Shown: piece after piece, positions 6,860 through 25,620 of the stretch
Layout of the letters: every line of letters begins with the position of its first letter
Position numbering within the stretch: the first letter of the stretch is position 1
The notes under the pieces: model-generated
What the model was told of the DNA's origin: nothing
Database searches by the model: none
What the model saw: only the letters and a program-made list of their open reading frames with translations
Translations under genes and position numbers: made by a program
DNA from: Prolixibacteraceae bacterium
GTDB lineage: Bacteria > Bacteroidota > Bacteroidia > Bacteroidales > Prolixibacteraceae
Assembly: GCA_028683385.1 (NCBI GenBank)
Contig: JAQUIJ010000009.1
Location: 62,001 to 126,000 of the forward strand
Reading direction: 5' to 3'
DNA: 64,000 nt

Positions 6860-7474
6860 ATGTTACTACATTTACCACCTATGACTCAGGAAAGGGAACA
6901 TATTCTTTTTACAGAAATCAGAAAAGGCAACGAAGAAGCTTTTAATAAAGCCTTTGATTTGTATTATTCCCGCCTTTGTTTTTTTTCCGATCAGATTCTT
7001 CACGATTTTGATTTATCCAGATCAATCGTACAGCAGGTATTTGTCGATCTTTGGATCAAGCGCGACCGACTGCTTGTAGCTTCTCTTCAGGCTTACCTTT
7101 ATAATTCAACTCGCAATGCTTCGCTGGATGTGCTTAAACACAAAAAAGTTGAATCGCGCTATCTGTCCTCACTTGAACAGAATGAAACAGTAGTTGACTC
7201 TGATTTGATGGAAGAAGCGGAACTTGCAGCGCGGATCAATTTGGCCATACAAAACCTTCCGGAGAAATGTCGTGAGATTTTTTTATTGTGCCGTTTTGAA
7301 GGCTTAAAATATGCCGAAATAGCCGATCAGTTAAATATTTCGGTTAAAACTGTTGAAATGCAGATTAGTATTGCCTTGAAAAAACTTCGAAAGGATTTGT
7401 CTGATTATCAGATGATACAGCTTTTAACTTTTTTTATTTCAAAAAAAACGCAACTTCCTTACAGGGTAATTTAG
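6860..7474 (+). CDS. ECF RNA polymerase sigma factor (Bacteroidota PUL type)
   Basis: 204 residues (197 if translation starts at the second ATG, 6881). Region 2 is at about 25-90 (EEAFNKAFDLYYSRL, VFVDLWIKRDRL) and region 4 at about 130-185 (LPEKCREIFLLCRFEGLKYAEIA with helix-turn-helix SVKTVEMQISIALKKLRK). It follows the FecI-like pattern. The FecR-type anti-sigma gene lies 46 bp downstream and is followed by a SusC with an STN domain, the classical trans-envelope switch in which ligand-loaded SusC releases the sigma factor. Expected targets are the SusC/D promoter and itself. Confidence 0.92.
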   Translation: MLLHLPPMTQEREHILFTEIRKGNEEAFNKAFDLYYSRLCFFSDQILHDFDLSRSIVQQVFVDLWIKRDRLLVASLQAYLYNSTRNASLDVLKHKKVESRYLSSLEQNETVVDSDLMEEAELAARINLAIQNLPEKCREIFLLCRFEGLKYAEIADQLNISVKTVEMQISIALKKLRKDLSDYQMIQLLTFFISKKTQLPYRVI

Positions 7475-7520: not shown

Positions 7521-8516
7521 ATGCAAAACGAACACGATCAGATAGATCTCATTATAGCCAATTACCTCAGTGGTGAAGCAACTCCTGAAGAAGCCAATGA
7601 ATTGAATCATTGGATTGGAAAATCGCCAGCGAATAAACGGTTTTTCGATGAAGCTAAGCGCATTTGGGAAAAGAGTCATCCTTTTTTCTCTGCTTCAGAG
7701 ATTGTTTCCGACCGCGAAAAAATCAAAGATCAAATCATTCAGCAACTTTCTAAACCTGAAAAACGTGTTGGTTTATCGGTTTGGATATACCGTGTTGCTG
7801 CAATTTTGGCCTTGCCGGTTATGTTGGGTATTGGCTGGTATTTGGGTTCTGACCAAAATAGCGCAGAAACAGCCATGTGTGAAGTTACAGCACCAAAAGG
7901 GCAGATTTCAAAATGTGTACTTGCCGATGGAACTCAGATTTGGTTAAATGCTGGAACAACCATTAAGTACGATCCGAGTTTAAAAGGTAGTTTCCGCGAG
8001 GTGAAATTGGATGGCGAAGCTTATTTCAAAGTTTCGAAAAACAAGCATAAACCGTTCGTGGTAACAACCAAATATGCGCATATCAAAGTGTTGGGAACTG
8101 TTTTTAATCTGAAAGCCTATTCGGGAGATCGCAACGTTGAGACCACTTTGGAAGAAGGGAGTGTTGAATTTAGCCTGAATGGGAGTTCGGCTAAACCTGT
8201 TGAATTGAAGCCGGGAGAGCAGATCGTTTTTAATTCCTCTGAAAATAAGTTGACCATGAGTAAAGTAGACACTTACCTGCTCACGGCCTGGAAGGATGGA
8301 AAATATGTATTTAAAGATGCCGATTTAAAAACTATTATCACTGAATTAGAGCGTTTGTACGATGTGCGAATTCATTTACAGAACGATTCATTGATGCAGT
8401 TACACTTTAGGGGAATGTTTGAATACGAACAGAATATTTTTAGCGCACTGGAAACCCTTGAAAGAACAACTAACCTGAAATACCGGATGGATGGACGAGA
8501 TATCTGGTTGCAATAG
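7521..8516 (+). CDS. FecR-family anti-sigma factor
   Basis: 331 residues: cytoplasmic N-terminal sigma-binding region (about 1-90, IANYLSGEATPEEANELNHWI), one membrane segment (about 91-110, YRVAAILALPVMLGIGWYLG), a periplasmic FecR domain (about 120-220, LADGTQIWLNAGTTIKYDP, LDGEAYFKVSKN, HIKVLGTVFNLKAY) and a C-terminal DUF4974-like domain (about 255-331). It holds the adjacent ECF sigma factor inactive until the STN domain of the downstream SusC signals substrate uptake. Confidence 0.93.
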   Translation: MQNEHDQIDLIIANYLSGEATPEEANELNHWIGKSPANKRFFDEAKRIWEKSHPFFSASEIVSDREKIKDQIIQQLSKPEKRVGLSVWIYRVAAILALPVMLGIGWYLGSDQNSAETAMCEVTAPKGQISKCVLADGTQIWLNAGTTIKYDPSLKGSFREVKLDGEAYFKVSKNKHKPFVVTTKYAHIKVLGTVFNLKAYSGDRNVETTLEEGSVEFSLNGSSAKPVELKPGEQIVFNSSENKLTMSKVDTYLLTAWKDGKYVFKDADLKTIITELERLYDVRIHLQNDSLMQLHFRGMFEYEQNIFSALETLERTTNLKYRMDGRDIWLQ

Positions 8517-8876: not shown

Positions 8877-11800
8877 ATGAAAATTATTCGGCAATCGAAT
8901 GTGGGCTTCTTGCCTTCGTTCAAAAAAATCTGGTTAATTATGAAACTTAACTTTTTTCTGATTCTTCTGACTGTCCTTCAGGTCTCGGCCAGTGTCTCAG
9001 CACAGAATACGAGACTGGACTTGAAAATGAAGAACGCCACCATTTCACAGATCTTTGATGAAATTGAACGGCAATCGGAAGTGTATTTCTTTTACAACAA
9101 AAGTCAGATTGATGAAAACAGAACCATCAGTGTTGACTACAAAAACAAAACCATTGACGAAATTCTGAAAGCAATTGTGTCGGATTTAAACCTTACCTAT
9201 GAAATTGCAGGAAAAAATATCATTATAAAAGCGGTCAATCCAGCAGGTAATGGTTTTCAGCAATCCGGGGTCAAAGTAAAAGGGGCAGTTAAAAATGCTT
9301 CCGGCGAATCGTTGCCTGGAGTTACCGTATTGGTCAAAGGAACCACCAATGGCGCAATAACCGATGCTGATGGGGTTTATAATCTGACCAATGTTCCCGG
9401 AGATGCTACGCTTGTATTTTCGTTCGTGGGAATGAAAAAGATCGAAATTGGCGTTGGAGGTAAGAGCACTGTTGATGCTATTTTGGAAGATGAGACCATT
9501 GGTATTGAAGAGGTGGTAGCTATTGGTTATGGTACCGTGAAAAAGAGCGACCTTACAGGTGCTGTTGGCTCGGTAAAAGGTGAATCGATTACCGATCGCC
9601 AAACAACGCAATTATCACAAGCTCTTCAGGGTGCTGTGTCGGGTGTTATGGTAACCCGTTCAAACAATGCTCCGGGAGCGACTGCAAATATTCGTATTCG
9701 CGGGGTAACTACAATTGGTGATAGCAATCCGTTGATTATTGTAGATGGAGTACCTGTTGATAACATGAATGATATTAACCCGAACGATGTGCAGGATATG
9801 TCGGTATTGAAAGATGCTGCATCTGCATCAATTTATGGATCGCGTGCTGCTTCAGGTGTAATTTTGATCACCACTAAGCGGGCCAAGAGCGGAGAAGTGT
9901 CATTAAATTATAATGTTGAGTATGGATTTGAGAAACCTACAGGTTTGCCAGAATTTGTTGATGTTAAGCGATACATGCAGATGGCAAACGAATTGCGTTG
10001 GAATGACAACAACAATAATGCAAACGAAAATCCACTCTATCCAAAGGATATGATCGACAATTATACTGCATTAAATGCTGAAAATCCGAATAAATATCCG
10101 AATACAGATTGGGTGGGATTAATGCTGAACAGCAGTGCTCCCCGCCAGAGTCATGTTTTGAGTTTAACTGCCGGAACAAAAGCAATCCGAACCAAAGTAT
10201 CGTTGGCTTACGATAAAACAGATGCTCTATATGACGGAAGTTCTTATGAACGGATGACCGCACGTTTTAATAACGATGTAACGATTACCAAATATTTATC
10301 AGCAAGCATCGACTTTTCATTTAAACGGTCAATCTCTCTTCAGCCAAGCATGGATCCCATTTATATGACATTTATCTCAGCACCTGTTTATGCAGCTACC
10401 TGGGCCGATGGACGTATTGCTGAAGGTAAAACCGGAGCCAACATTTATGCTCAGATTAAAGACGGGGGTAATGTTGATAACCGCTACAATCAGGTTGGTG
10501 GCAAAATGTCTCTCGATTTTACACCGTTTAAAGGATTTAAACTCTCGGCTGTTTTATCTCCAACATTGGGTTTCGACAAGGGAAAAAACTTTCAGAAAAA
10601 AGTATCTTACTATTCAGCTGACGATCCTACTGTATATAATGGAACAACTCAATGGGGAGCTACAACTAAATTAACAGAAAGCAGAGCCGATTATTCACGT
10701 GTTACAACTCAGTTAATAGGTACTTATCTAAAGGATTTTGGTGCACATAGCCTCAACTTTATGGCTGGATACGAAAACTATTACGCCTTTAATGAAACCA
10801 TGGGAGCCTCTCGTGATAAATACGAATTAACTACTTTCCCTTATTTAAATCTGGGACCTCTTGAATTCCGCGACAACAGCGGAAGCGCATACGAAAATGC
10901 CTACCGTTCATATTTTGGACGTGCAATGTATAATTATAAGAACAAATATTTTTTACAAGGAAACATCCGTTACGACGGTTCTTCAAGGTTTCATGAAGAT
11001 TATCGCTGGGGCTCTTTCCCATCTTTTTCTGCTGGATGGGTACTTTCAGAAGAATCTTTCATGAAAAATATTCCTGCTCTATCTTTTCTGAAATTGCGCG
11101 GTTCGTGGGGAACATTGGGAAATGAACGAATTGGAAACTATCCTTATCAGGCGACAATTGCCTTTACAAATGCTTTGTTTTTTCAAGGGAGCAATGTTGC
11201 AGCAGCTCAAACAGCAGCACAAACTAAATATGTGATTCAGGATATTTCATGGGAAACCACAGAGTCAATAGACTTTGGAGTTGATGCCAATTTTTTGAAT
11301 AATCGATTGAGATTTACCGGCGACTATTATCAAAAAACAACAAAGGACATGCTACTTGCTCTTGAAATTCCGGATTATATTGGATTTGACAACCCTGATC
11401 AGAATACGGGAAAGATGGATACCAAAGGATGGGAAGCTGAGATCGGTTGGAACGATAAAATAGGAAATCTGGGTTATTCCGTTTCCGCAAATATTTCTGA
11501 TTTTAAATCGATTATGGGTGATTTGGGTGGAACCGAATTTTTGGGCGACCAGATTAAGAAAAAAGGCAGCGAATTCAATGAATGGTATGGCTATGTTTCT
11601 GATGGACTATTTCAGACAGAAGCCGATTTAGCAGCTTCTCCCAAATTAAACACCGCCATGAAAGTTGGTGATGTGAAATACAGGGATATTAGCGGACCCA
11701 ATGGAGTCCCTGACGGGAAAATTTCTCCTGAATATGATCGTAAATTATTAGGTGGGTCATTACCACGCTACATGTATGGAGCAAACATTAAGTTGGACTA

Positions 11801-12248
11801 TAAGAACTTTGATTTCTCGTTAATCTTACAAGGTGTAGGTAAAGTTACCACACGACTTGAAGGCTTAATGGTTCAGCCATTGATGGAAAACTGGGGATCT
11901 GTACCAAAAATATTGGATGGCACAAGCTGGAGTAAATACAATACAGAAGCACAGAATCTTGCAGCTAAATACCCAAGACTAACTCAGAATAACCGTGGCA
12001 GCAACTATCTTATGTCTGACTATTGGCTGTTTGATGGTGCTTATCTGCGTTTGAAGAATATTACACTGGGATACAATTTACCACAAGTTTGGGCTCAGAA
12101 GGTAAGTCTTCAGAAAGTCAGAGTATATGCTAGCGCATCGGATATCTTAACCTTCAACAAATACCCCAAAGGGTGGGACCCTGAAGTTTCTTCAAGTGGA
12201 TACCCAATTACTGCGTCTTATGTCTTTGGTTTATCAGTCACATTTTAA
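8877..12248 (+). CDS. SusC/RagA-family TonB-dependent receptor with STN signalling domain
   Basis: 1123 residues. The N-terminus is a signal region with a second hydrophobic start typical of this class (about 20-43, MKLNFFLILLTVLQVSASVSA). Then comes an STN domain (about 48-118, MKNATISQIFDEIERQSEVYFFYN is its core), a carboxypeptidase-regulatory-like beta domain (about 130-200), the plug (about 205-335, EEVVAIGYGTVKKSDLTGAV, with NPLIIVDGVPVDN and KDAASASIYGSRAASGVILITTK), and a 22-strand barrel ending in SYVFGLSVTF. It imports oligosaccharides through the outer membrane using TonB energy. The STN domain links it to the FecR/ECF pair upstream. It is paired with SusD 12 bp downstream. Confidence 0.95.
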   Translation: MKIIRQSNVGFLPSFKKIWLIMKLNFFLILLTVLQVSASVSAQNTRLDLKMKNATISQIFDEIERQSEVYFFYNKSQIDENRTISVDYKNKTIDEILKAIVSDLNLTYEIAGKNIIIKAVNPAGNGFQQSGVKVKGAVKNASGESLPGVTVLVKGTTNGAITDADGVYNLTNVPGDATLVFSFVGMKKIEIGVGGKSTVDAILEDETIGIEEVVAIGYGTVKKSDLTGAVGSVKGESITDRQTTQLSQALQGAVSGVMVTRSNNAPGATANIRIRGVTTIGDSNPLIIVDGVPVDNMNDINPNDVQDMSVLKDAASASIYGSRAASGVILITTKRAKSGEVSLNYNVEYGFEKPTGLPEFVDVKRYMQMANELRWNDNNNNANENPLYPKDMIDNYTALNAENPNKYPNTDWVGLMLNSSAPRQSHVLSLTAGTKAIRTKVSLAYDKTDALYDGSSYERMTARFNNDVTITKYLSASIDFSFKRSISLQPSMDPIYMTFISAPVYAATWADGRIAEGKTGANIYAQIKDGGNVDNRYNQVGGKMSLDFTPFKGFKLSAVLSPTLGFDKGKNFQKKVSYYSADDPTVYNGTTQWGATTKLTESRADYSRVTTQLIGTYLKDFGAHSLNFMAGYENYYAFNETMGASRDKYELTTFPYLNLGPLEFRDNSGSAYENAYRSYFGRAMYNYKNKYFLQGNIRYDGSSRFHEDYRWGSFPSFSAGWVLSEESFMKNIPALSFLKLRGSWGTLGNERIGNYPYQATIAFTNALFFQGSNVAAAQTAAQTKYVIQDISWETTESIDFGVDANFLNNRLRFTGDYYQKTTKDMLLALEIPDYIGFDNPDQNTGKMDTKGWEAEIGWNDKIGNLGYSVSANISDFKSIMGDLGGTEFLGDQIKKKGSEFNEWYGYVSDGLFQTEADLAASPKLNTAMKVGDVKYRDISGPNGVPDGKISPEYDRKLLGGSLPRYMYGANIKLDYKNFDFSLILQGVGKVTTRLEGLMVQPLMENWGSVPKILDGTSWSKYNTEAQNLAAKYPRLTQNNRGSNYLMSDYWLFDGAYLRLKNITLGYNLPQVWAQKVSLQKVRVYASASDILTFNKYPKGWDPEVSSSGYPITASYVFGLSVTF

Positions 12249-12260
12249 AACTACGGTATC

Positions 12261-13958
12261 ATGAAAAATAAAATATTACAACTGCTGTTTCTTACAGGAT
12301 TTATCTTCATTTCGTCATGTACTGATTTAAATTTAAATCCTTTATCTGAAGGTTCGAGTGAAACCTGGTATTCCAACGAAAGTGAGGTTACCATGGCTCT
12401 GAATGATTTATATCGTGAGGTTTTTTGGCCACGAGATGGTGATGACTGGAGTGATGATTGGACTCAAAGAGATCAAACCACTGCTATAACAAATGGTACT
12501 CTCAATGGCGAGGATGGAACAATAAACACTTGGTGGACAAATTCATATAAGTGCATTGCACGAGCTAATACCATTCTACTTAATCTTGAAAAATCAAAAG
12601 ATAAATTTCCTCAGGCGACTATCGATAAATTTGCCGGAGAAGCAAGGTTTGTAAGGGCTGCCCAATATGCCATGTTGATTTCTCATTATGGCGACGTGGT
12701 TTATTTCACCGGCATTCTGAATCTGGAAGAGTCATTTACTCTATCAAAAACCGATCAGAAAACAATCCTGAAGGCAATTTACGATGACTATGATTTTGCG
12801 GCTTCTAAATTGCCAACTACCTATGGTAGTAGCCAAAACTTACATCCGACTAAAGGTGCTGCATTAGCGATGAAAGCTCGCATTGCGCTTTTCTATAAAG
12901 ATTTTGCCATTGCCCGCGACGCAGCCAAAGCTTGTATGGATTTGAATGCGTATGATCTATTTGCAGATTATTCAACGCTGTTTTTATCGAAAACAAAGAA
13001 CCCGAAAGAATTAATTTTCGGGCTTCCCCGGTCGGCTGTTTTGAATGTTACCATAGGCGATACTAAAAACTGGATCTCACGTTTGTCAGGAGGCTGGGGG
13101 GGCGTTTGTGCACCTTCATGGGAATTATTCTGCTCTTATCTTTGTACTGATGGACTGCCCATTGATGAGTCACCTCTATTCGATCCGCGTCTTCCTTTCA
13201 AAAATCGCGACCCTCGCTGTACTGCATCCATTGTTGAATTTCAAACTCCATGGTTAGGATTTATGTATCAACCGCATCCTGATTCATTGAAGGTAACCAA
13301 TTTTAAGACTGGGTTAAAGGTCACCAACAATGATACACGTTCGAATGCTGCATTTGCCTCATTCAACGGGTTGATGATGAAAAAGGCAATTGATGAAGAC
13401 TGGATTGATGATTATAAGGCTGAAAATGAAATTTTTCTGATGCGATATGCTGATGTATTGTTGATGTATGCTGAGGCAAAAATCGAATTGAATGAAATTG
13501 ATCAGGCTATGGTTGACGCAACAATTAATAGGGTTCGTGCCCGTGCCTATAAAGTGGCTGTAACCGATAAAACTAAATATCCAGCCGTTAATGTTACCGA
13601 TCAAACTAAACTGCGCAAAGCTTTACGTATTGAACGACGCATGGAATTTGCATTCGAAAATCGTCGGTACGAGGATATTATTCGTTGGAAGTTGGCTGAA
13701 AAAGTGCTGAACCGAAATATATACGGAATGCTCGATGTTGCTGACTTGAGACTAAAGGTAATCAAGCCTGGATTGTGGTTTTTCCCGCAAACGCCTGAAA
13801 TTGATGACGATGGTGCCGCGATTTTTGAACCGATCTATAATGCTGGCTTGATTAAACGACTTGCAATACGTAATTATCCCGCGAAACAGTACGTTTGGCC
13901 AATCCCATCCAAGGAAATTTTGATCAATTCAAACCTGAAACAAAATTCAGGATACTAA
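12261..13958 (+). CDS. SusD/RagB-family glycan-binding lipoprotein
   Basis: 565 residues. Lipoprotein signal with lipobox cysteine C20 (FIFISSC). The SusD N-terminal pattern LNLNPLSEGSSETWYSNESE, TPR-like helices (KGAALAMKARIALFYKDF) and the C-terminal RagB region (FLMRYADVLLMYAEAKIELNE, RIERRMEFAFENRRYEDIIRWK) are all present. It sits on the cell surface as a lid on SusC and captures the glycan. It is co-transcribed with SusC. The transcript probably ends at 13973-14079. Confidence 0.95.
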   Translation: MKNKILQLLFLTGFIFISSCTDLNLNPLSEGSSETWYSNESEVTMALNDLYREVFWPRDGDDWSDDWTQRDQTTAITNGTLNGEDGTINTWWTNSYKCIARANTILLNLEKSKDKFPQATIDKFAGEARFVRAAQYAMLISHYGDVVYFTGILNLEESFTLSKTDQKTILKAIYDDYDFAASKLPTTYGSSQNLHPTKGAALAMKARIALFYKDFAIARDAAKACMDLNAYDLFADYSTLFLSKTKNPKELIFGLPRSAVLNVTIGDTKNWISRLSGGWGGVCAPSWELFCSYLCTDGLPIDESPLFDPRLPFKNRDPRCTASIVEFQTPWLGFMYQPHPDSLKVTNFKTGLKVTNNDTRSNAAFASFNGLMMKKAIDEDWIDDYKAENEIFLMRYADVLLMYAEAKIELNEIDQAMVDATINRVRARAYKVAVTDKTKYPAVNVTDQTKLRKALRIERRMEFAFENRRYEDIIRWKLAEKVLNRNIYGMLDVADLRLKVIKPGLWFFPQTPEIDDDGAAIFEPIYNAGLIKRLAIRNYPAKQYVWPIPSKEILINSNLKQNSGY

Positions 13959-13972
13959 AAAGTATATTTTCT

Positions 13973-14005
13973 ATTGAGGGGATGACTTTATTTCGCCCCC
14001 TCAAT
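13973..14005 (+). repeat. Hairpin just after SusD
   Basis: ATTGAGGGG (13973-13981) pairs perfectly with CCCCTCAAT (13997-14005). There is no T tract, so it is more likely an mRNA 3'-end or processing structure than a terminator by itself. The true terminator follows at 14051-14079. Confidence 0.5.
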
Positions 14006-14050
14006 ATTCACCAACATATACCAATTGAACCCACTAACCATGAGTTTCCA

Positions 14051-14079
14051 AAAAAGGGTGGCTTTGAGTCACCCTTTTT
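14051..14079 (+). terminator. Terminator between SusD and the following lipoprotein gene
   Basis: A perfect 10-bp stem AAAAAGGGTG (14051-14060) with CACCCTTTTT (14070-14079), the right arm supplying the T tract. It is symmetric enough to act in both directions. It separates SusC/D (high expression) from the enzyme genes, which may be reached by read-through or by their own promoter. Confidence 0.8.
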
Positions 14080-14104
14080 AATAACCAATTCAAATTTAAT
14101 GATC

Positions 14105-16612
14105 ATGCGAAAATCTAATAGAATAAGTAAGCGCAGCTGGATGATTGTTTTAGTAACACTGTTTTTTGCCGCCTGTGCCGTTCAGGAAAAAAAGCAACAA
14201 ACAGCAAAATCGTTTAGCGGAATCTATCCACAACTGGCATATTACAACAATGAAGGTGAATGTGGTACTGGTGCTGTAGTTCCTTGGGCCGACAAGCTTT
14301 GGGTAATTACTTATGGGCCGCATCTTCCGTTGGGGTCTTCTGATAAACTTTATGAAATTACCCCTGATTTGCAGAAAATCGTTCGTCCGGAAAGCATCGG
14401 CGGAACACCTGCCAACCGCATGATTCATAAAGAAAGTAACCAGCTTTTTATTGGTCCTTATGCCATCGATGCAACAGGAAGAGTGAACGCGATTCCATAC
14501 TCGGTTATGCAGGGACGACATACCGGAAATGCCCGCCATTTAACCGATCCGGCTGGAAAAATTTACTACGGAACCATGGAAGAAGGTTTTTACGAAGTGG
14601 ATGTGAAAACCCTTCAGCCGACTCAACTATACAAAGATGGTAATAATGCAAAGGGAAGTATAATTACGCACAACGATACCGATGTGAATCCTCAGAGCGC
14701 CACTTTGCCGGGAGCGCACGGAAAGGGTTTATATTCCGGACAGGGTGTAATGGTTTTCTCGAATAATGGAGAAGCCAATCCGCTTGCATTGAAACAATTC
14801 GATATCGAATCCGGAGTTTTGGCCGAATGGAACGGTAAAGACTGGAAAGTGGTTCGCCGCAACCAGTTTGTAGAAGTGACTGGTCCGGGCGGAATTTACG
14901 GCAATGCCAATCCGGCAACCGATCCGATTTGGGCTACCGGTTGGGATTATAAATCGGTTTTGGTTGGCGTTCGCAATCCTGAAACGGGTTGGAGTTTTTA
15001 CCGTTTACCAAAAGCCAGTCACAGTTACGACGGCGCCCACGGCTGGAACACCGAATGGCCCCGCATCCGCGACATTGGCACTGCTGCAAAACCCGATTAC
15101 CTGATGACTATGCACGGCATGTTCTGGCGGTTCCCTGGATCATTTTCTTCCGGAAATTCGGCTGGTATTCGCCCACGTTCGGCCTACCTAAAAGTAATTG
15201 GAGACTTCACCCGATGGAACGATCAGCTCGTTTTCGGGTGTGACGATTCTGCACAAAAAGAATTTCTTAACAAGCGTAAAGTGAAAGGTAACATTGAAGG
15301 TCCCGGGCAGTCTAATTCAAACCTTTGGTTTACTTCTCCTGAGAAACCTGATCAATTAGGTCCGAATACTGCGGAAGGTGCAGTTTGGATTTCTGAAGAT
15401 GTTAAAGCCGGTGATGTTTCTGAACCTTTCCTTTTTTCGGGTTGGGATGTTCGGTCGGCTTGGCTTAAAAATGAAGGCAAACAGTCCGTTTCGTATACAT
15501 TTGAAGTGGATGAAAAAGGTAATAATGTATGGAAAACATTGAAAACTGTTTTGTTGAACCCTGATGAGGCTAACGATGTTCCTTTTGTTGCTGCCGAAGC
15601 AGGAGAATGGGTTCGCGTAAAGGTTGATAAGGCAACTAAAACTACGGTTCAGTTTTCATACGCACAAAAAGACAGGCGTAACTTGTTTGCTGATCCTATT
15701 TTTGCCGGAGTGGCCAATGTCTCGACTTCCGAAACCAGTGCCGGATTACTTTGGGGTTTGGGAAATAACCGTCGCAAATTGGGTATTCTGGCCGGAACTG
15801 TATCTGATCGATCGTTTACTGAATCAGGATATTATGAACTCGATTCGCTGATGAACCTGGTGAAGGTTGATGATCCTAAAACCGCATCCTTTATTCGCGA
15901 GAAATTTACCATTCCAAACAATGTAATTACCATCGACGATGCGTCTGTTCTTATTACCGACGAATCGGGACGTCGTTGGAGACTTCCAAAAGGCAATCCG
16001 AAATATGCCGATCTGACCGAAAATTCCGTATTGCGCATTTGTCGTGAAGTGGCCACCGAACGCGATTTGTTGAATTGTTCAGGAACTTTTTACGAACTAC
16101 CGGCTGAAAATGCCGATGGATTTGCAAAGGTTCGTCCGATTGCTTCGCATAACTTCCGGATTTTTGATTACGCATCATATCGTGGAATGTTGATTTTAAC
16201 AGGACTGGATGCATCGGCTTCAGAAGGGAATCCACATGTAATCACCTCAGAAGATGGAAAAGCTGCTGTTTGGGCGGGTGTAATCGACGATTTGTGGCGA
16301 ATGGGAAAACCGGTTGGTGAAGGCGGTCCGTGGAAAAACTCGGCAGTAAAAGCTGGTGTGGCTTCTGATCCATATTTGATTGGATTTTACGACAAACGTA
16401 GCCTGAAACTTTCGCACGATTCGAAAGAAACAGTTACATTCAAAATCGAAGTTGAGCCCATTGGTCATGGTCCGTGGATGACTTATCAAACGGTATTGGT
16501 AAAATCGGGCGAAAGTTTCGAATACAGTTTCCCTGAGACCTTCCAGTCGCGCTGGATTCGCTTTGCAGCCGACAAGGATTGCTCGGCAACTGCCTGGTTG
16601 AAATACGAATAA
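14105..16612 (+). CDS. Large uncharacterised lipoprotein with a beta-propeller-like N-half and a duplicated beta-sandwich module
   Basis: 835 residues from the ATG at 14105 (a second ATG lies at 14099). The frame extends upstream to 13895, but that would cross the SusD stop and the terminator at 14051-14079. The start at 14105 gives a clean lipoprotein signal with lipobox FFAAC (C24). Residues about 40-430 contain repeated short strands (YEITPDLQKI, LFIGPYAID, KIYYGTMEEGFYEVD) suggesting a beta-propeller. Two segments, about 438-520 and 754-835, align with each other (S-E/D-P-F/Y-L, D-x-RS, FEVD/IEVE, W-x-T, TVL, W-V/I-R, DK). No catalytic motif is recognised and no named family is known to me. 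Its position after SusD suggests a surface glycan-binding protein or unusual enzyme of the locus. Confidence 0.7.
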   Translation: MRKSNRISKRSWMIVLVTLFFAACAVQEKKQQTAKSFSGIYPQLAYYNNEGECGTGAVVPWADKLWVITYGPHLPLGSSDKLYEITPDLQKIVRPESIGGTPANRMIHKESNQLFIGPYAIDATGRVNAIPYSVMQGRHTGNARHLTDPAGKIYYGTMEEGFYEVDVKTLQPTQLYKDGNNAKGSIITHNDTDVNPQSATLPGAHGKGLYSGQGVMVFSNNGEANPLALKQFDIESGVLAEWNGKDWKVVRRNQFVEVTGPGGIYGNANPATDPIWATGWDYKSVLVGVRNPETGWSFYRLPKASHSYDGAHGWNTEWPRIRDIGTAAKPDYLMTMHGMFWRFPGSFSSGNSAGIRPRSAYLKVIGDFTRWNDQLVFGCDDSAQKEFLNKRKVKGNIEGPGQSNSNLWFTSPEKPDQLGPNTAEGAVWISEDVKAGDVSEPFLFSGWDVRSAWLKNEGKQSVSYTFEVDEKGNNVWKTLKTVLLNPDEANDVPFVAAEAGEWVRVKVDKATKTTVQFSYAQKDRRNLFADPIFAGVANVSTSETSAGLLWGLGNNRRKLGILAGTVSDRSFTESGYYELDSLMNLVKVDDPKTASFIREKFTIPNNVITIDDASVLITDESGRRWRLPKGNPKYADLTENSVLRICREVATERDLLNCSGTFYELPAENADGFAKVRPIASHNFRIFDYASYRGMLILTGLDASASEGNPHVITSEDGKAAVWAGVIDDLWRMGKPVGEGGPWKNSAVKAGVASDPYLIGFYDKRSLKLSHDSKETVTFKIEVEPIGHGPWMTYQTVLVKSGESFEYSFPETFQSRWIRFAADKDCSATAWLKYE

Positions 16613-16628: not shown

Positions 16629-18113
16629 ATGAACTGCAAGATCCTTTTCTTTCTGTTTGGTTGGCTCTTCCTTTGCTACAATTCGCTTGCGGCAAAGGAA
16701 AAGTCAACGGTTGAAGATTCGCCTAAACGGTTTACCATTATGGGAATTGGCGATTCGATTACGGAAGGTGGAGCGAATTTTCAGTCATACCTTTTCCCGT
16801 TGTTGGAGCGGCTTTTTACAGCCGGTTATCAGTTCGACCTTGTTGGTCCGAGGGCAGCGAAATGTCGGATTGGGACACTGAATCATGGCGGTTTTAGCGG
16901 AAAGAATGCTGAATTTTTAGATGCACATATCGACAGTACTTACCGGCAATATCCGGCTGATGTAGTTTTACTTCATGCCGGGCACAACCATTTTGATACA
17001 GAGAAACCGGTGACTGGAATTGTCCGGGCTCAGGAATCCATCATCCGAAAAATACAGGCCATAAACCCCGATGTTAAAATCCTTGTGGCGCAGGTAATCC
17101 CGAGTGGAAAACTACCCAAATATTCATACATTCAGGAGTTAAATAAAGGCATAGCCAATGCAATTGAAAAAATGCACAATCCGAATGTAATTTTGGTAAA
17201 TCAGGCTAAAGGGTTTGACTGGCAGAAGCATACTATCAACGACAGGGTTCACCCCAATGAGGCAGGTGCTGAGCAAATGGCTGAGGTATGGTTTCAGGCT
17301 CTGCAGCAAATTTTACCAAAGCCGGTTCAATCGTTCAATCCTGAAATAATCCGATATAAACGGGCCAGTCAGGGCGATTTAAACCTCCATATTTTTAAGC
17401 CTGAAAAGCTGAAGAAAGGCGAAAAACGGCCGGCAATTATTTTCTTTTTTGGAGGTGGCTGGACATTGGGCACTCCGTTGCAGTTTTATCGCGAATGTTC
17501 ATATTATGCCTCAAAAGGAATGGTGGCCATATCGGCCGAATACCGGATTTCGTACCTTCACCAGACCAGCGCCTTCGAAAGTTTGGAAGATGCCCGCGAC
17601 GCCATTTGCTGGCTTCGGGAACATGCCACCGAACTAAATCTGGATACTGCACGGATTGCAGCGGCCGGAGCATCTGCTGGCGGACATCTGGCTGCAGCAA
17701 CCGGAATCATTCACCGGAATGAAACTTGTTCTCAGGCACGCCCCAATTTGCTGGTGCTTTATTATCCGGTAATCGACATTGGTCCTGAAGGATATGGTTC
17801 TGCTGAATTGAAAAGCCGATATACTGAAATTTCGCCGTTGCATAATATTGACCACACATCGCCGCCCGCTTTGTTTATATTGGGAACAAAAGATGCGCTG
17901 ATACCTGTAAAAACGGCTGAAGCATTTCAGAAACGAATGAATGAAAATGGGGTGGAGTGTGAGCTTCGTTTGATCGAAGGAGCGGGACATCCGATTTTTT
18001 ACTATGCAAAAACGCTGACACCCGATTTTTACACCATCAGGCAGTTAACCGACAATTTTTTAGTCAGGCACGGTTACCTGGAGAAAAATGAAAAGATTAA
18101 CCTAAAAGAATAA
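16629..18113 (+). CDS. Two-domain esterase: SGNH hydrolase fused to an alpha/beta hydrolase
   Basis: 494 residues with a signal peptide (about 1-22, FLFGWLFLCYNSLAA). The N-half (about 35-230) is an SGNH/GDSL esterase: block I GIGDSITEG (S43), the GHN triplet in HAGHNHFD, and block V DRVHPN giving the Asp/His pair. The C-half (about 250-494) is an esterase of the HGGG class: oxyanion motif present as FGGGW (around 274-278, the usual His replaced by Phe), nucleophile elbow GASAGG (S349), D422 (GTKDALIP) and H454 (GAGHPIF). Both triads look complete. The protein probably removes acyl groups (acetyl, methyl or aromatic) from the glycan in the periplasm. It lies 16 bp after the lipoprotein gene and 3 bp before the FAD enzyme, so it is in one operon with them. 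Confidence 0.85.
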   Translation: MNCKILFFLFGWLFLCYNSLAAKEKSTVEDSPKRFTIMGIGDSITEGGANFQSYLFPLLERLFTAGYQFDLVGPRAAKCRIGTLNHGGFSGKNAEFLDAHIDSTYRQYPADVVLLHAGHNHFDTEKPVTGIVRAQESIIRKIQAINPDVKILVAQVIPSGKLPKYSYIQELNKGIANAIEKMHNPNVILVNQAKGFDWQKHTINDRVHPNEAGAEQMAEVWFQALQQILPKPVQSFNPEIIRYKRASQGDLNLHIFKPEKLKKGEKRPAIIFFFGGGWTLGTPLQFYRECSYYASKGMVAISAEYRISYLHQTSAFESLEDARDAICWLREHATELNLDTARIAAAGASAGGHLAAATGIIHRNETCSQARPNLLVLYYPVIDIGPEGYGSAELKSRYTEISPLHNIDHTSPPALFILGTKDALIPVKTAEAFQKRMNENGVECELRLIEGAGHPIFYYAKTLTPDFYTIRQLTDNFLVRHGYLEKNEKINLKE

Positions 18114-18116
18114 ACC

Positions 18117-19949
18117 ATGAAAAGAGTTTTAATTGCGCTCCTGATGCTGATTTCAGGATATGTTTTTGCTCAAAACAATTCAGTTTTGATCGAAGCCGAA
18201 AGTTTTGCCAGCAAAGGTGGTTGGGTGGTCGATCCACAATTTGTTGAACAAATGGGATCGCCTTACCTATTGGCGCACGGAATGGGAAAGCCGGTAAAAG
18301 ATGCCGAAACGAATATTTCAATTAAGAAAGCCGGAAAGTATCATGTTTGGGCTCGTACAAAAAACTGGGCTCCCGGAAACTGGGAAGCTCCCGGCCGCTT
18401 TTATGTTGCTATTGACGGGAAAAAACTGGAACGGGAGTTAGGGAAAAATCCAGGCTGGAACTGGGAATATGCAGGGAATATGGATCTTTCGAAAGGGGAT
18501 AAAAAGCTTTCGCTTAAAGATTTGACCGGTTTCGAAGGTCGTTGCGATGCTATTTATCTGACCCAATCGGAAAATGAAAAGTTGCCAACCGAAAATGAAG
18601 TGCTGAAAAAGTGGCGATTAGCACAATCCGGACTAACTATTGCTCCTCAACAGGTGGCTAATTATGATTTGGTGGTGGTTGGCGGAGGAATTGCCGGTTG
18701 TGCTGCTTCCATTGCAGCTGCAGAGCAAGGCCTGAAAGTTGCGCTTGTGCACGATCGGCCTGTTTTAGGTGGAAATGCCAGTGGTGAAATACGGGTTCAT
18801 ACACTCGGTATTTACGGGAAGTTTGAACGCATCCTGAAAATGCTGGATACCGAACATTATCCCAATGGGTCAGCAGATGCTTTAAAAGAGGACCAAAAGC
18901 GTATGACGAATGTGGAAAAATACAAGAATATCGATCTGTTTCTCAACTTCAGGGCGTACGGCGCCAATGCTACAGATGGAAAAATTACTTCGGTCGATGC
19001 ACGGCAAACCTCAACCGGGGAGTCTGTTCGTTTTGAAGCGCCATTGTTTATAGACTGTACCGGCGACGGCTGGATTGGCTACTGGGCTGGCGCCGAATAT
19101 AATTATGGAAGGGAAGCTTCGTCGAAATACAACGAAAGCTGGGATGAGCACGGATTATTGTGGAGTCCGGAAACCGCAGACAACTTTGTAATGGGTTCTT
19201 CTGTTTTATGGGGATCAGAAAATGCTGGGAAACGGGTCGAATTTCCGGAGGTTCCTTGGGCGATGGATGTGGCTAAAAAATATGCCGAGAAAAACGGCGA
19301 GTGGCAATGGGAATTTTCGCAAAATGACCTGAGCCAGATTGAAGATGCCGAAACCATTCGCGATCACATGTTCCGTGCAATTTATGGTTCGTTTTACAAT
19401 TATAAGCACCCAACTCAGGACACGCAACTGTCGGATAAAGCCAAAATGGCGACTGTGGATATGAGTAAGCGGCAGGCAAAAGTTGACAGCTTACAGCTGA
19501 AATGGGTTTCATATCTGCTTGGAAAACGTGAATCGAGGCGACTGGTTGGCGACTACATTTACACGTTTAACGACGAGCGAAATGCCACAAAGTTTGAAGA
19601 TGCCGTGGTGTTCGAGAAGCGCGAGGTTGATGTGCATTACCAGGTAAACCTACTCGACGACGAAAAACCCAATTTTCTGTCGGAAGCCATGTTTTACAAA
19701 ACCGATCAGTATAGCATTCCATATCGCTGTTTCTACTCGAAAAATATCAGCAACCTGTTTATGGCTGGGCGAGATTTTAGTTGTTCACATGTTGGACTGG
19801 GCGGACCGCGGGTGATGCGTACCACCGGACAAATGGGAGCTGCTGTTGGATTTGCGGCGTCGCTTTGCAAAAAATACAATGTCGATCCGCGCGATATTTA
19901 CCTGTCGCATTTAAAAGAGTACCTCAATTTGATTGAATCTCAAAAATAA
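18117..19949 (+). CDS. Exported FAD-dependent oxidoreductase with N-terminal carbohydrate-binding-like domain
   Basis: 610 residues. Signal peptide about 1-18 (LIALLMLISGYVFAQ). Residues about 22-155 form a beta-sandwich-like module (EAESFASKGGWVVDPQF, KAGKYHVWARTKNW, GRFYVAIDGKK, DLTGFEGRCDAIYL) resembling carbohydrate-binding domains attached to such enzymes. The dinucleotide-binding motif VVVGGGIAGCAAS starts near residue 184, and the fold is of the FAD_oxidored (PF12831) type, with the C-terminal flavin contact AGRDFSCSHVGLGGPRVMRT. The enzyme probably oxidises a sugar or sugar derivative in the periplasm. It sits between the two-headed esterase (3 bp upstream) and the flavinylation-motif protein (4 bp downstream), implying translational coupling. 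The substrate is unknown. Confidence 0.85.
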   Translation: MKRVLIALLMLISGYVFAQNNSVLIEAESFASKGGWVVDPQFVEQMGSPYLLAHGMGKPVKDAETNISIKKAGKYHVWARTKNWAPGNWEAPGRFYVAIDGKKLERELGKNPGWNWEYAGNMDLSKGDKKLSLKDLTGFEGRCDAIYLTQSENEKLPTENEVLKKWRLAQSGLTIAPQQVANYDLVVVGGGIAGCAASIAAAEQGLKVALVHDRPVLGGNASGEIRVHTLGIYGKFERILKMLDTEHYPNGSADALKEDQKRMTNVEKYKNIDLFLNFRAYGANATDGKITSVDARQTSTGESVRFEAPLFIDCTGDGWIGYWAGAEYNYGREASSKYNESWDEHGLLWSPETADNFVMGSSVLWGSENAGKRVEFPEVPWAMDVAKKYAEKNGEWQWEFSQNDLSQIEDAETIRDHMFRAIYGSFYNYKHPTQDTQLSDKAKMATVDMSKRQAKVDSLQLKWVSYLLGKRESRRLVGDYIYTFNDERNATKFEDAVVFEKREVDVHYQVNLLDDEKPNFLSEAMFYKTDQYSIPYRCFYSKNISNLFMAGRDFSCSHVGLGGPRVMRTTGQMGAAVGFAASLCKKYNVDPRDIYLSHLKEYLNLIESQK

Positions 19950-19953
19950 GCAG

Positions 19954-20904
19954 ATGCGATTAACTGGCATTGCCCTGATCATCTTAAGTTTTTCGCTGCA
20001 CGCAATTAGCGCAGTTTCAAGCTCTCCGGATAGTTTAAAAACTTGCCGAAAGGCATTTTTGTTTAAAACTGATGATTATGCAGTTGCCAATGCGATTGAC
20101 ATATGCCGCAATGCCGCGCAAGTTCCGGTGGGTTACGAAACTGCACTAAACATGGCAGTTTGTGACGATAAACTATGTGCCAATGTGGTCCTGAAAGTAT
20201 GCTGGGATTTGGCCGGAAATTATGTGCGCTTTGATACAATCGCGGGTAAGCCTCTGACCAAATTTGATCACAAGCGGTTTAGTGATGCCGACTATAAAAA
20301 GCTGGATCAGATTTTAAAAGACCGGAATAGTATGCTTCGGGTTTTGGAAAAGAGCGATCTTGTGGATAAAAGCATCAAGCTAAAAGCTACCACAGTTGAT
20401 GCAGTTAGCGGAGCAACTCCGGCAACGATAAAAAATGCTGTTGTCGAAGGGGCTGTTTATTCGTCGCATACCTTGTGGCATTTGGTTAACGGACAGATCA
20501 AAGATAGTATCCGCGCTTTTACCCTCAGGAATTATTCTGAACAAATAGCTTTACAGATGTTGGGCTCTGATAATTTTGAAACTCAGTTGTTCGCTTTAAA
20601 GCAAATTCCACAGGAACAATACGAAAGTCGTTTTGAATCGCTTTTTCAAGTCATTCGGAAAAGTAGCCCTTTGATCCGAGCATACATCATAAACAGGGCG
20701 CCTTTGCCATTTCGTGATCAGGAGAAAAACAGGAAACTTGCGTTGCAGTTTCCTGATCTTGACGGATACAGCAAAAGTATATTCATGAACCGAATATTGA
20801 ATGACTCAGAAATACTAAATGTATTTGCACCATTGATGTTGAACGTCTTAAATATATTAAGTGCAGAGCAAGCAAAAACAATTAAAGAGGCGATTCGGAA
20901 ATGA
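19954..20904 (+). CDS. Exported protein with ApbE-type covalent FMN attachment motif
   Basis: 316 residues from the ATG at 19954 (4 nt after the previous stop); a longer in-frame form from 19933 would lose the signal peptide position. Signal segment about 1-20 (LTGIALIILSFSLHAISA). Several cysteines occur at 31, 51, 70, 75 and 83. Residues 149-155 read D-A-V-S-G-A-T, an exact match to the D-x-x-(S/T)-G-A-T sequence in which ApbE links FMN to the Thr (T155), known from NqrC/RnfG FMN-binding domains. The C-terminal third (about 190-316) is helical and HEAT-like. No named family is recognised. It is flanked by two exported FAD oxidoreductases, so it may be their electron carrier. FMN attachment is inference from the motif. 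Confidence 0.7.
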   Translation: MRLTGIALIILSFSLHAISAVSSSPDSLKTCRKAFLFKTDDYAVANAIDICRNAAQVPVGYETALNMAVCDDKLCANVVLKVCWDLAGNYVRFDTIAGKPLTKFDHKRFSDADYKKLDQILKDRNSMLRVLEKSDLVDKSIKLKATTVDAVSGATPATIKNAVVEGAVYSSHTLWHLVNGQIKDSIRAFTLRNYSEQIALQMLGSDNFETQLFALKQIPQEQYESRFESLFQVIRKSSPLIRAYIINRAPLPFRDQEKNRKLALQFPDLDGYSKSIFMNRILNDSEILNVFAPLMLNVLNILSAEQAKTIKEAIRK

Positions 20905-21089
20905 TCTTCCATTCTTTGTGATAAATAAATATAAAAAACGAAATGATGCATATTTCATTTTAAAGGAATAAAGATTCTATCCTTTATAAATACATTAATT
21001 GAATAGTTCTTATTACTTAATCGTCTATTTGTCTTGTGAAATATATTTTCAGGAGTTATATTGTCAAATTAATAATCAAAATATTGGAA

Positions 21090-22754
21090 ATGGGCTATAC
21101 TTTAAAATTAATTAATCTGCTAACAATAATCTTTTGCATATTGTTTACAATAACTTCTTGTAGTCGAGGTGATGAAAACAACTATTCCGCAGATATCATT
21201 ATTTATGGCGGAACATCAGCGGCAATTACCGCGGCAGTAGAAGCCGTTCAGTCTGGCAAAACAGTTTTGGTTGTTTCTCCTGATAAACATTTGGGTGGAC
21301 TTTCTTCCGGCGGATTGGGCTTTACAGATACTGGTGACAAATCGACCATTGGTGGACTTTCCCGCGAGTTTTATCACCGGGTTTGGTTGCATTACAACGA
21401 TTCAGCAGCATGGAAATGGCAGAAACACTCGGAATTTGGCAACAAAGGTCAGGGAACCGTTGCTATGGACGGCGAAAACCGGACCATGTGGATTTTCGAA
21501 CCTCACGTGGCAGAACAGGTTTTCGAAGACTTTATTGCTGAAAATAAAATCACCGTTTTGCGCAACGAATGGCTTGACAGAACCAACGGATTGGTAAAAG
21601 AGAATGGCAAAATTGTATCATTCAAGACGCTTTCGGGAAAAACATTCTCCGGCAAAATGTTTATCGATGCCACTTACGAAGGCGATTTGATGGCGGCTGC
21701 CGGCGTAACTTATCATGTTGGCCGCGAAGCTTGCTCGGTTTACAACGAAACATGGAATGGCGTCCAGGCTGAAGTATTTCAACATGGTCATCATTTCAAA
21801 GATCAGATTGATCCGTACAAAATCCCAGGGAAACCTGAAAGTGGCTTGCTGTATGGTATTTCGCCCGAACCGATTGCACCAAACTGCTCTGGTGATAACA
21901 AAATTCAGGCCTATTGTTTTCGCTTGTGTATGAGTAGTAATCCCGATAATTTAGTGCCTTTCCCGAAACCTGAAAATTACGATCCCGCCAACTACGAATT
22001 GCTTGGTCGCGTGTTTGATGCCGGTTGGAGAGAGTGGTTTGATAAGTTTGACCTGATTCCAAACCGCAAGACTGACACCAATAACCACGGTCCGTTCAGC
22101 AGCGATTTTATCGGTATGAATTACGATTATCCTGAAGCTTCGTACGAGCGACGCAAGGAAATTATTCAGGAGCATGAAAATTACCAAAAAGGTTTACTTT
22201 ATTATGTGGCCAACGATCCGCGTGTTCCGAAGGAAATTCACGAGGAAATGCAAAAGTGGGGATTGGCAAAAGATGAATTTACGGAGAATGGAAACTGGTC
22301 GCGACAGTTGTACATTCGCGAAGCACGGCGAATGATTGGCGTTTATGTGACTACAGAAAATGATGTTTTGGCTAAACGCGAAGTCCCTCAACCGGTTGGA
22401 ATGGGGTCGTATGCGATGGATTCGCACAATGCACAGCGATATGTAACTTCCGAAGGATTTGTACAGGATGAAGGCGATATCGGTGTTTCGCCCGAAGCTC
22501 CGTACTCTATTTCTTATGGCTCCATAATCCCAAAGAAAGAAGAATGTACCAATTTGCTTGTTCCGGTTTGTGTTTCGTCGAGTCACATTGCCTATGGATC
22601 GATTCGCATGGAACCTGTTTTTTTGATATTGGGTCAGTCAGCGGCAGTGGCAGCTTGCAATGCAATTGATGGCGGAATTGGAGTTCAGGACGTTGATTAC
22701 AATGTGCTTAAGGAAATGCTGAAGAAAAAGAATCAGGTGCTTAAACTGCAGTAA
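21090..22754 (+). CDS. FAD-dependent oxidoreductase, lipoprotein form
   Basis: 554 residues from the ATG at 21090; the frame extends to a GTG at 21036, but the ATG gives a correct lipoprotein signal with ITSC (C24). Directly after it comes the FAD motif DIIIYGGTSAAITAAVEA (about 35-52), typical of the FAD_oxidored (PF12831) family where the last Gly of GxGxxG is replaced by Ala. Conserved downstream parts are GGLSSGGLGFTDTGD, FIDATYEGDLMAAAGV, LYIREARRMIG and SSHIAYGSIRMEPVFLILGQSAAVAA. It is predicted to be anchored in an envelope membrane facing the periplasm. It is the second flavoenzyme of the cluster; a 185-bp gap separates it from the flavinylation-motif gene. The substrate is unknown. 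Confidence 0.85.
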   Translation: MGYTLKLINLLTIIFCILFTITSCSRGDENNYSADIIIYGGTSAAITAAVEAVQSGKTVLVVSPDKHLGGLSSGGLGFTDTGDKSTIGGLSREFYHRVWLHYNDSAAWKWQKHSEFGNKGQGTVAMDGENRTMWIFEPHVAEQVFEDFIAENKITVLRNEWLDRTNGLVKENGKIVSFKTLSGKTFSGKMFIDATYEGDLMAAAGVTYHVGREACSVYNETWNGVQAEVFQHGHHFKDQIDPYKIPGKPESGLLYGISPEPIAPNCSGDNKIQAYCFRLCMSSNPDNLVPFPKPENYDPANYELLGRVFDAGWREWFDKFDLIPNRKTDTNNHGPFSSDFIGMNYDYPEASYERRKEIIQEHENYQKGLLYYVANDPRVPKEIHEEMQKWGLAKDEFTENGNWSRQLYIREARRMIGVYVTTENDVLAKREVPQPVGMGSYAMDSHNAQRYVTSEGFVQDEGDIGVSPEAPYSISYGSIIPKKEECTNLLVPVCVSSSHIAYGSIRMEPVFLILGQSAAVAACNAIDGGIGVQDVDYNVLKEMLKKKNQVLKLQ

Positions 22755-25546: not shown

Positions 25547-25620
25547 TCGGGGTAGCCGGATTTGAACCGACGACCTCGTCGTCCCGAACGACGCGCGCTA
25601 CCAAGCTGCGCTACACCCCG
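25547..25620 (-). tRNA. tRNA-Pro, anticodon CGG
   Basis: The reverse complement folds as a 74-nt cloverleaf: acceptor CGGGGTG/TACCCCG with discriminator A, D-stem GCGC/GCGC, anticodon stem CGTCG/CGACG with loop TTCGGGA (anticodon CGG, reading CCG), variable AGGTC, and T-stem GTCGG/CCGGC with loop TTCAAAT. The CCA end is not encoded. Confidence 0.96.

Follow-up and report, generated by a model that had tools for sequence, protein, structure and literature searches.

A candidate class of ApbE-flavinylated protein paired with exported FAD oxidoreductases, often in SusC/SusD-type loci of Bacteroidota

INTRODUCTION

Electron carriers flavinylated in the manner of ApbE substrates are known as a kind, and the family described here would be a variant of that kind, with its chemistry read from sequence. 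The published ApbE motif is D-x-x-[S/T]-G-A-[S/T], as stated in the excerpts of PMC12052999 used here. DUF2271 and DUF3570, domains other than FMN_bind that carry [S/T]GA[S/T], have been demonstrated to be flavinylated, and domains binding flavin mononucleotide (FMN) occur in or beside PF00890 enzymes, the systems named being reductases, according to excerpts of a 2021 survey (PMC8238504). Here, we analyzed 64,000 nucleotides of a Prolixibacteraceae bacterium (contig JAQUIJ010000009.1, positions 62,001 to 126,000; the whole stretch is called the window below), in which a SusC/SusD-type locus encodes a 316-amino-acid (aa) protein with an exact ApbE motif between two oxidoreductases predicted to depend on flavin adenine dinucleotide (FAD).

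The family to which this protein belongs is real, widespread, and unnamed; its ApbE site is near-invariant, it is usually paired with an FAD enzyme, and it often lies in glycan loci. The motif, its conservation across the family, the gene linkage, and the ApbE linkage in relatives were established by computation. Their best reading is that the family is a new class of ApbE substrate, a covalent-FMN protein that would carry electrons for an exported FAD enzyme encoded in SusC/SusD-type loci. For the core of this reading, i.e., a flavinylated carrier working with an FAD enzyme in either electron direction, we estimate a probability of about 0.7.

The 2021 survey took in the five flanking genes to either side of genes for ApbE, FMN-binding, DUF3570, or DUF2271 proteins (PMC8238504); being centered on those genes, it would have picked up the present family only in their vicinity. 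In open-licence PubMed Central, where a failed search is weak evidence of absence, we found no paper that treats flavinylation or ApbE together with polysaccharide utilisation loci or SusD, no paper linking PF12831 with polysaccharide, and no match to a narrow 3-keto query. An FAD-dependent oxidoreductase is mentioned once in passing together with polysaccharide utilization loci and a sulfatase, in excerpts of PMC11345257.

RESULTS

An exact ApbE motif in a putatively exported protein

The 316-aa protein is encoded at 19954..20904 on the + strand, and its residues 149-155, encoded at 20398..20418 (+), read DAVSGAT, an exact match to the ApbE flavinylation motif with T155 as the proposed FMN acceptor. 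These coordinates and residues agree with those of an earlier reading of the window made from its letters alone (the sequence-only reading). The N terminus is hydrophobic and signal-like as read by eye, on which basis the protein is predicted to be exported. In the excerpts of PMC12052999, seven residues are the reported minimal motif length recognised by ApbE, replacing the motif glycine with alanine lowers flavinylation to about half, and changes of the motif aspartate have minor effects.

The strict motif is present in 97 of the 151 family members examined, against 4 of 1369 other proteins longer than 150 aa from the loci read, so its occurrence in the family is more than chance. Three of these four proteins come from own-genome loci chosen because they contain known flavinylation genes; one of them matches PF04205. 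The sequence-only reading had pointed to several cysteines and a HEAT-like C-terminal half. Five cysteines are present, with only C70 and C75 conserved in the family, and a HEAT_2 match occurs in 4 of 34 aligned members, which is indirect backing, while the window protein itself has none. A search of solved structures gave weak matches only, mostly to helical-repeat chains and one to a covalent-FMN domain, 8p2b_A (E 0.15, profile positions 133-168).

A widespread family with a conserved putative acceptor residue

Three queries were used: the window protein for its own taxonomic family, A1 for an even draw of genomes across the phylum, and A3 for three other taxonomic families (f7, f8, and f13). 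The searches recovered relatives in 51 of the 140 genomes from the window's own taxonomic family and in 41/397 (one a weak, broken match), 20/199, and 50/150 genomes of the three others; the draw of 395 phylum genomes gave matches in 10, convincing in 8, including the window's own genome. The viral contigs searched held no relative. The loci were taken from hit lists, mostly as the best match per genome, and form a non-random sample. In the own taxonomic family, 3 of 64 places were left out and two fragments shorter than 150 aa were dropped; 8 of the 12 rows of the phylum draw were used, leaving out the window's own gene and three weak matches to the C-terminal half only; and f7, f8, and f13 were sampled by 40, 20, and 20 regions, respectively. 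Neighboring genes were labeled with local profiles.

Most of the distant members are only 20 to 29% identical to the window protein. In the 151-member alignment (two fragments lack the motif columns), the successive motif positions hold D in 150 members and E in 1, S or T in 129 and A in 22, G in 121 and another residue in 30, A in 150 and S in 1, and finally T in 150 and S in 1, the acceptor T/S being kept in 151 of 151. C70 and C75 are each kept in 150 of 151, and the residues invariant in 34 diverse members are C70, C75, G88, K103, F109, L121, D149, A154, T155, and W175.

Pairing with an FAD oxidoreductase

In the window, the gene is flanked by two FAD_oxidored (PF12831) genes, at 18117..19949 and 21036..22754, both on the + strand, with a gap of 4 bp from the end of the first to the start of the 316-aa gene. 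Both match PF12831 above the cutoff (E 5.9e-67 and 8.1e-109) over 416 of 416 profile positions; 11 rows match PF12831 in the own genome, and only the two window genes cover the whole profile. The proposed placement between two such genes holds. The first protein (610 aa) has a signal-like N terminus and an N-terminal domain of ~165 residues, for which a carbohydrate-binding-like nature had been proposed; a Golvesin_C match in 2 of 20 relatives, at best E 0.0081, gives a weak hint of it. The second has a lipoprotein-like N terminus as read by eye, and its true start is probably later than the listed GTG.

Across the family, 117 of 151 members have FAD_oxidored as the immediate neighbor on the same strand, which supports a link between the two. 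By group, these are 28/59 members in the own taxonomic family, 7/8 in the phylum draw, 40/41 in f7, 21/22 in f8, and 21/21 in f13, i.e., 89/92 outside the own family. The gap between the two genes has a median of 3.5 bp, taking the starts of the longest open reading frames (ORFs), and 105 of 124 junctions are no longer than 50 bp. In most cases the enzyme gene precedes the carrier gene, and in f13 the reverse order prevails; a fusion of the two was not present among the ORFs read. Pfam scans confirmed PF12831 in all 20 neighbors of one set of 20, at four loci of another, and in 9 of 10 low-scoring adjacent genes, the tenth (L088, counted in the 117) being a 116-aa fragment. On a quick tree, the adjacency label required 13 changes against a mean of 31 after shuffling, with none of 500 shuffles as low. 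Among the 140 genomes of the own taxonomic family, 39 had both genes, 12 the 316-aa family only, 16 the FAD enzyme only, and 73 neither (Fisher p 1.2e-11, relatedness ignored).

ApbE genes beside the family in relatives

Thirteen members, in 12 loci of two other taxonomic families, have an ApbE gene no more than three genes away on the same strand. These loci are L136 together with ten of the 20 f13 loci, and L141 from f7. All 12 were confirmed as PF02424. In L141, FAD_oxidored is followed by ApbE and then by the carrier gene, the latter two being 6 bp apart. The ApbE label takes 6 changes on the tree, the linked loci being related and thus non-independent. A single ApbE is encoded in the window's own genome, and its N terminus is lipoprotein-like as read by eye. 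Because of the near-invariant motif, the ApbE genes in cluster at 12 loci, and the own-genome ApbE, the candidacy for covalent flavinylation put forward by the sequence-only reading is well supported.

Elsewhere in the own genome, a small PF04205 protein with DAISGAT (L145:7999-8559) represents a separate flavinylation module. Its neighbor is 25% identical to a porin-like neighbor cluster.

The polysaccharide utilisation locus of the window

The window locus is of the SusC/SusD type and is a polysaccharide utilisation locus, having a SusC/SusD pair and carbohydrate-active enzymes in one block: matches to the receptor Plug and to SusD_RagB are accompanied by Glyco_hydro_88 and esterase-like genes in the same + strand block. 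All of its genes named here are on the + strand. It begins with an ECF-type sigma factor with a Sigma70_r4_2 domain match (6860..7474) and a FecR anti-sigma-type protein (7521..8516), followed by a SusC-type TonB-dependent receptor (8877..12248; Plug, CarbopepD_reg_2, and STN) and a SusD-family protein (12261..13958; SusD_RagB and SusD-like_3). Next are an unnamed protein without a Pfam match (13895..16612), whose true start is probably 3' of the listed TTG, and a two-domain esterase-like protein (16629..18113; GDSL lipase plus BD-FAE/Abhydrolase_3). Downstream of the two FAD_oxidored genes and the 316-aa gene lie a CstA-like membrane transporter (PF02554; 22801..24252) and a Glyco_hydro_88 family protein (PF07470; 24324..25451), and after the locus a tRNA on the opposite strand (25547-25620).

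The SusC/SusD setting recurs in part. Within three genes of the 151 members, we found SusC-like genes in 32, SusD-like genes in 33, sulfatase genes in 35, and same-strand CstA-like genes in 40. CstA relatives are pyruvate or peptide transporters, and the recurring CstA-like neighbor might point to a keto acid as product. Only 2 of 151 members have 3-keto-disaccharide-hydrolase-like genes within three genes, and a 3-keto-sugar pathway is for that reason not proposed. The 13895-16612 protein belongs to a family of ~826 aa without a Pfam match, found in 12 of the loci read; as judged by eye, it also adjoins lone FAD_oxidored genes (L233, L235, and L238).

DISCUSSION

We propose that the 316-aa protein would be exported to the periplasm, where T155 of DAVSGAT would receive FMN from the cell's ApbE in a phosphoester linkage, and that the flavinylated protein would then carry electrons for the FAD_oxidored enzyme whose gene lies just upstream. 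The pair would be a two-protein counterpart of the extracytosolic fumarate- or urocanate-type reductases with an FMN-binding domain and an FAD enzyme. The compound oxidised by the FAD enzyme would most likely be a sugar, or a derivative of one, that the SusC/SusD locus handles, and electrons would pass from the enzyme to the FMN protein and on to a membrane chain. We consider flavinylation of the protein highly probable and its redox partnership with the FAD enzyme likely, while the oxidation of a carbohydrate by that enzyme is a tentative suggestion, rated at slightly less than an even bet. Both a glycan as the redox substrate and the existence of an electron chain are claims that we, like the sequence-only reading, only infer.

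A number of results weigh against this proposal, and several of them favor other explanations. The 316-aa protein has no significant Pfam match (best row E 0.16) and no NCBIfam match. The FMN_bind profile that the sequence-only reading expected it to match fails: the protein does not reach the curated cutoff of PF04205, which only two other genes of the own genome match, and 3 of 34 family members match it weakly (best E 0.048). A profile-profile comparison (hhalign) of the N-terminal domain with FMN_bind proteins of relatives detected similarity at the motif (28 columns, E 3.2e-5) that fell to E 0.89 once the motif was masked, a reversed-profile control giving 0.061. Pfam, NCBIfam, and profile-profile comparison thus do not support homology to FMN_bind beyond the motif. 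AlphaFold2 models of the full-length protein and of residues 25-194 had a mean pLDDT of 38.4 and 35.1, too poor for fold assignment, and no solved structure matched the second FAD protein. Within the motif, the S/T is replaced by A in 22 of 151 members, nearly all ApbE-linked f13 members included, and the glycine is replaced in 30 of 151. With an FMN_bind domain unrecognisable beyond the motif, no usable structure, and many members deviating at the two inner motif positions, DxxSGAT could be kept for a structural reason, with no flavinylation at all. We regard this as very improbable, however, given an acceptor kept in every member, ApbE in cluster at 12 loci, and a motif of just the minimal length that ApbE recognises (PMC12052999, in excerpt). 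As to ApbE itself, none was found close to the window gene or in any of the 59 loci read from its own taxonomic family; it is present in 49 of 51 family-positive genomes against 136 of 140 overall, and since nearly all of these genomes carry it anyway, its co-occurrence says little.

Of the co-occurrence that the sequence-only reading had proposed to survey, FAD_oxidored adjacency is seen across the family and nearby ApbE in relatives. In the own taxonomic family, the FAD enzyme often stands alone. There, only 28 of 59 members have an adjacent FAD_oxidored; conversely, a member lies within 1.5 kb at 21 of 74 FAD_oxidored places and at none of the other 53. These 74 places are first rows, 23 weaker, partial rows having been left out, at least one of which (G061:C14) adjoins a family member; with no more than 9 candidates scored per genome, the counts are lower bounds, and several places are near contig ends. 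The 20 lone places read (ORFs ≥80 aa) held no family member, ApbE, strict-motif protein, or CXXCH protein, five of them having SusC- and SusD-like genes, and 16 of 55 genomes with the FAD enzyme yielded no family member, some genomes being incomplete. The enzyme may therefore work without a carrier, use one in trans, or have another acceptor. It might thus be redox-neutral or use another acceptor, with the flavin protein only resetting or priming it in some lineages, a possibility that we consider improbable in view of the co-occurrence of the two genes across genomes and the very short gaps where both are present. No likelier is a general periplasmic redox role for a flavinylated protein, e.g., with heme proteins or iron, in which the two genes adjoin without direct electron exchange between their products. 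FAD_oxidored is frequently present without a member, 34 of 151 members lack an adjacent one (four of them at a contig or locus edge), and some of the 34 adjoin peptidase or heme-protein genes. In particular, a branch of 11 loci without FAD_oxidored (L052, L065, L070, L078, L084, L085, L087, L089, L090, and L091 in the own family and L185 in f7) carries imelysin-like and di-heme-oxidoreductase-like genes (Pfam on representatives), and each locus encodes one to four CXXCH proteins; its members have 175 to 326 aa and keep the acceptor T or S. This branch is perhaps an iron or heme redox module, and it fits an electron carrier able to serve different partners. Against a purely general role stand the 117 adjacent pairs, with their short median gap, in both gene orders and four taxonomic families. 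A heme role of the 316-aa protein itself was rejected, as no labeled family member carries CXXCH. Finally, the same carrier and partner could work in reverse, with electrons flowing from the membrane chain through FMN to FAD and a sugar-derived compound being reduced, which would leave our core claim intact and change the direction only. By sequence, the solved structures closest to the first FAD enzyme are those of flavocytochrome c fumarate reductases, and the FMN-binding plus PF00890 systems named in excerpts of PMC8238504 are reductases; yet the likeness is confined to an FAD-binding stretch of ~47 to 66 residues, and the locus gives no indication of the substrate. We judge reverse flow unlikely, though less so than the other alternatives.

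As a separate observation, the DAVSSAT members L042, L044, L047, and L050 lie next to or near a DPP IV-type peptidase gene and efflux-type genes, not in glycan loci.

The flavinylated carrier working with an FAD enzyme, if true, would add an unrecognised class of ApbE substrate, supply a partner for many PF12831 enzymes in glycan loci, and mean that extracytoplasmic sugar degradation in Bacteroidota can be coupled to electron transport. The family pattern suggests overlooked electron movement during sugar breakdown outside the cell interior. The prediction is short and testable, consisting of a seven-residue site with a one-residue control. A bolder version, in which a new fold class of covalent flavoprotein (CxxxxC plus DxxSGAT) would be the dedicated carrier for widespread exported glycan-acting FAD oxidoreductases in Bacteroidota, making part of polysaccharide degradation in these bacteria a respiratory redox chemistry wired to the membrane through flavinylation, is doubtful, at clearly less than an even chance.

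Among known systems, periplasmic glucoside 3-dehydrogenases work alike in that a periplasmic FAD enzyme acting on sugars has its own electron carrier, a dedicated cytochrome subunit; they differ in their FAD family and in their heme carrier. The FMN_bind proteins (PF04205), such as NqrC and RnfG, are ApbE substrates and share DxxSGAT at the FMN-accepting Thr. The similarity of the present family to them is limited to that motif, and the family has a signature of its own (C70-x4-C75, W84, K103, F109, and W175) and, in some members, a HEAT-like C-terminal half. The DUF2271 and DUF3570 substrates are other proteins with other partners. The PF00890 fumarate/urocanate reductase-like enzymes likewise combine an extracytosolic FAD enzyme with a covalent-FMN part, as described in excerpts of PMC8238504, whereas here the two parts would be separate proteins, with a PF12831 enzyme, a glycan-locus setting, and a carrier unrecognised as FMN_bind.

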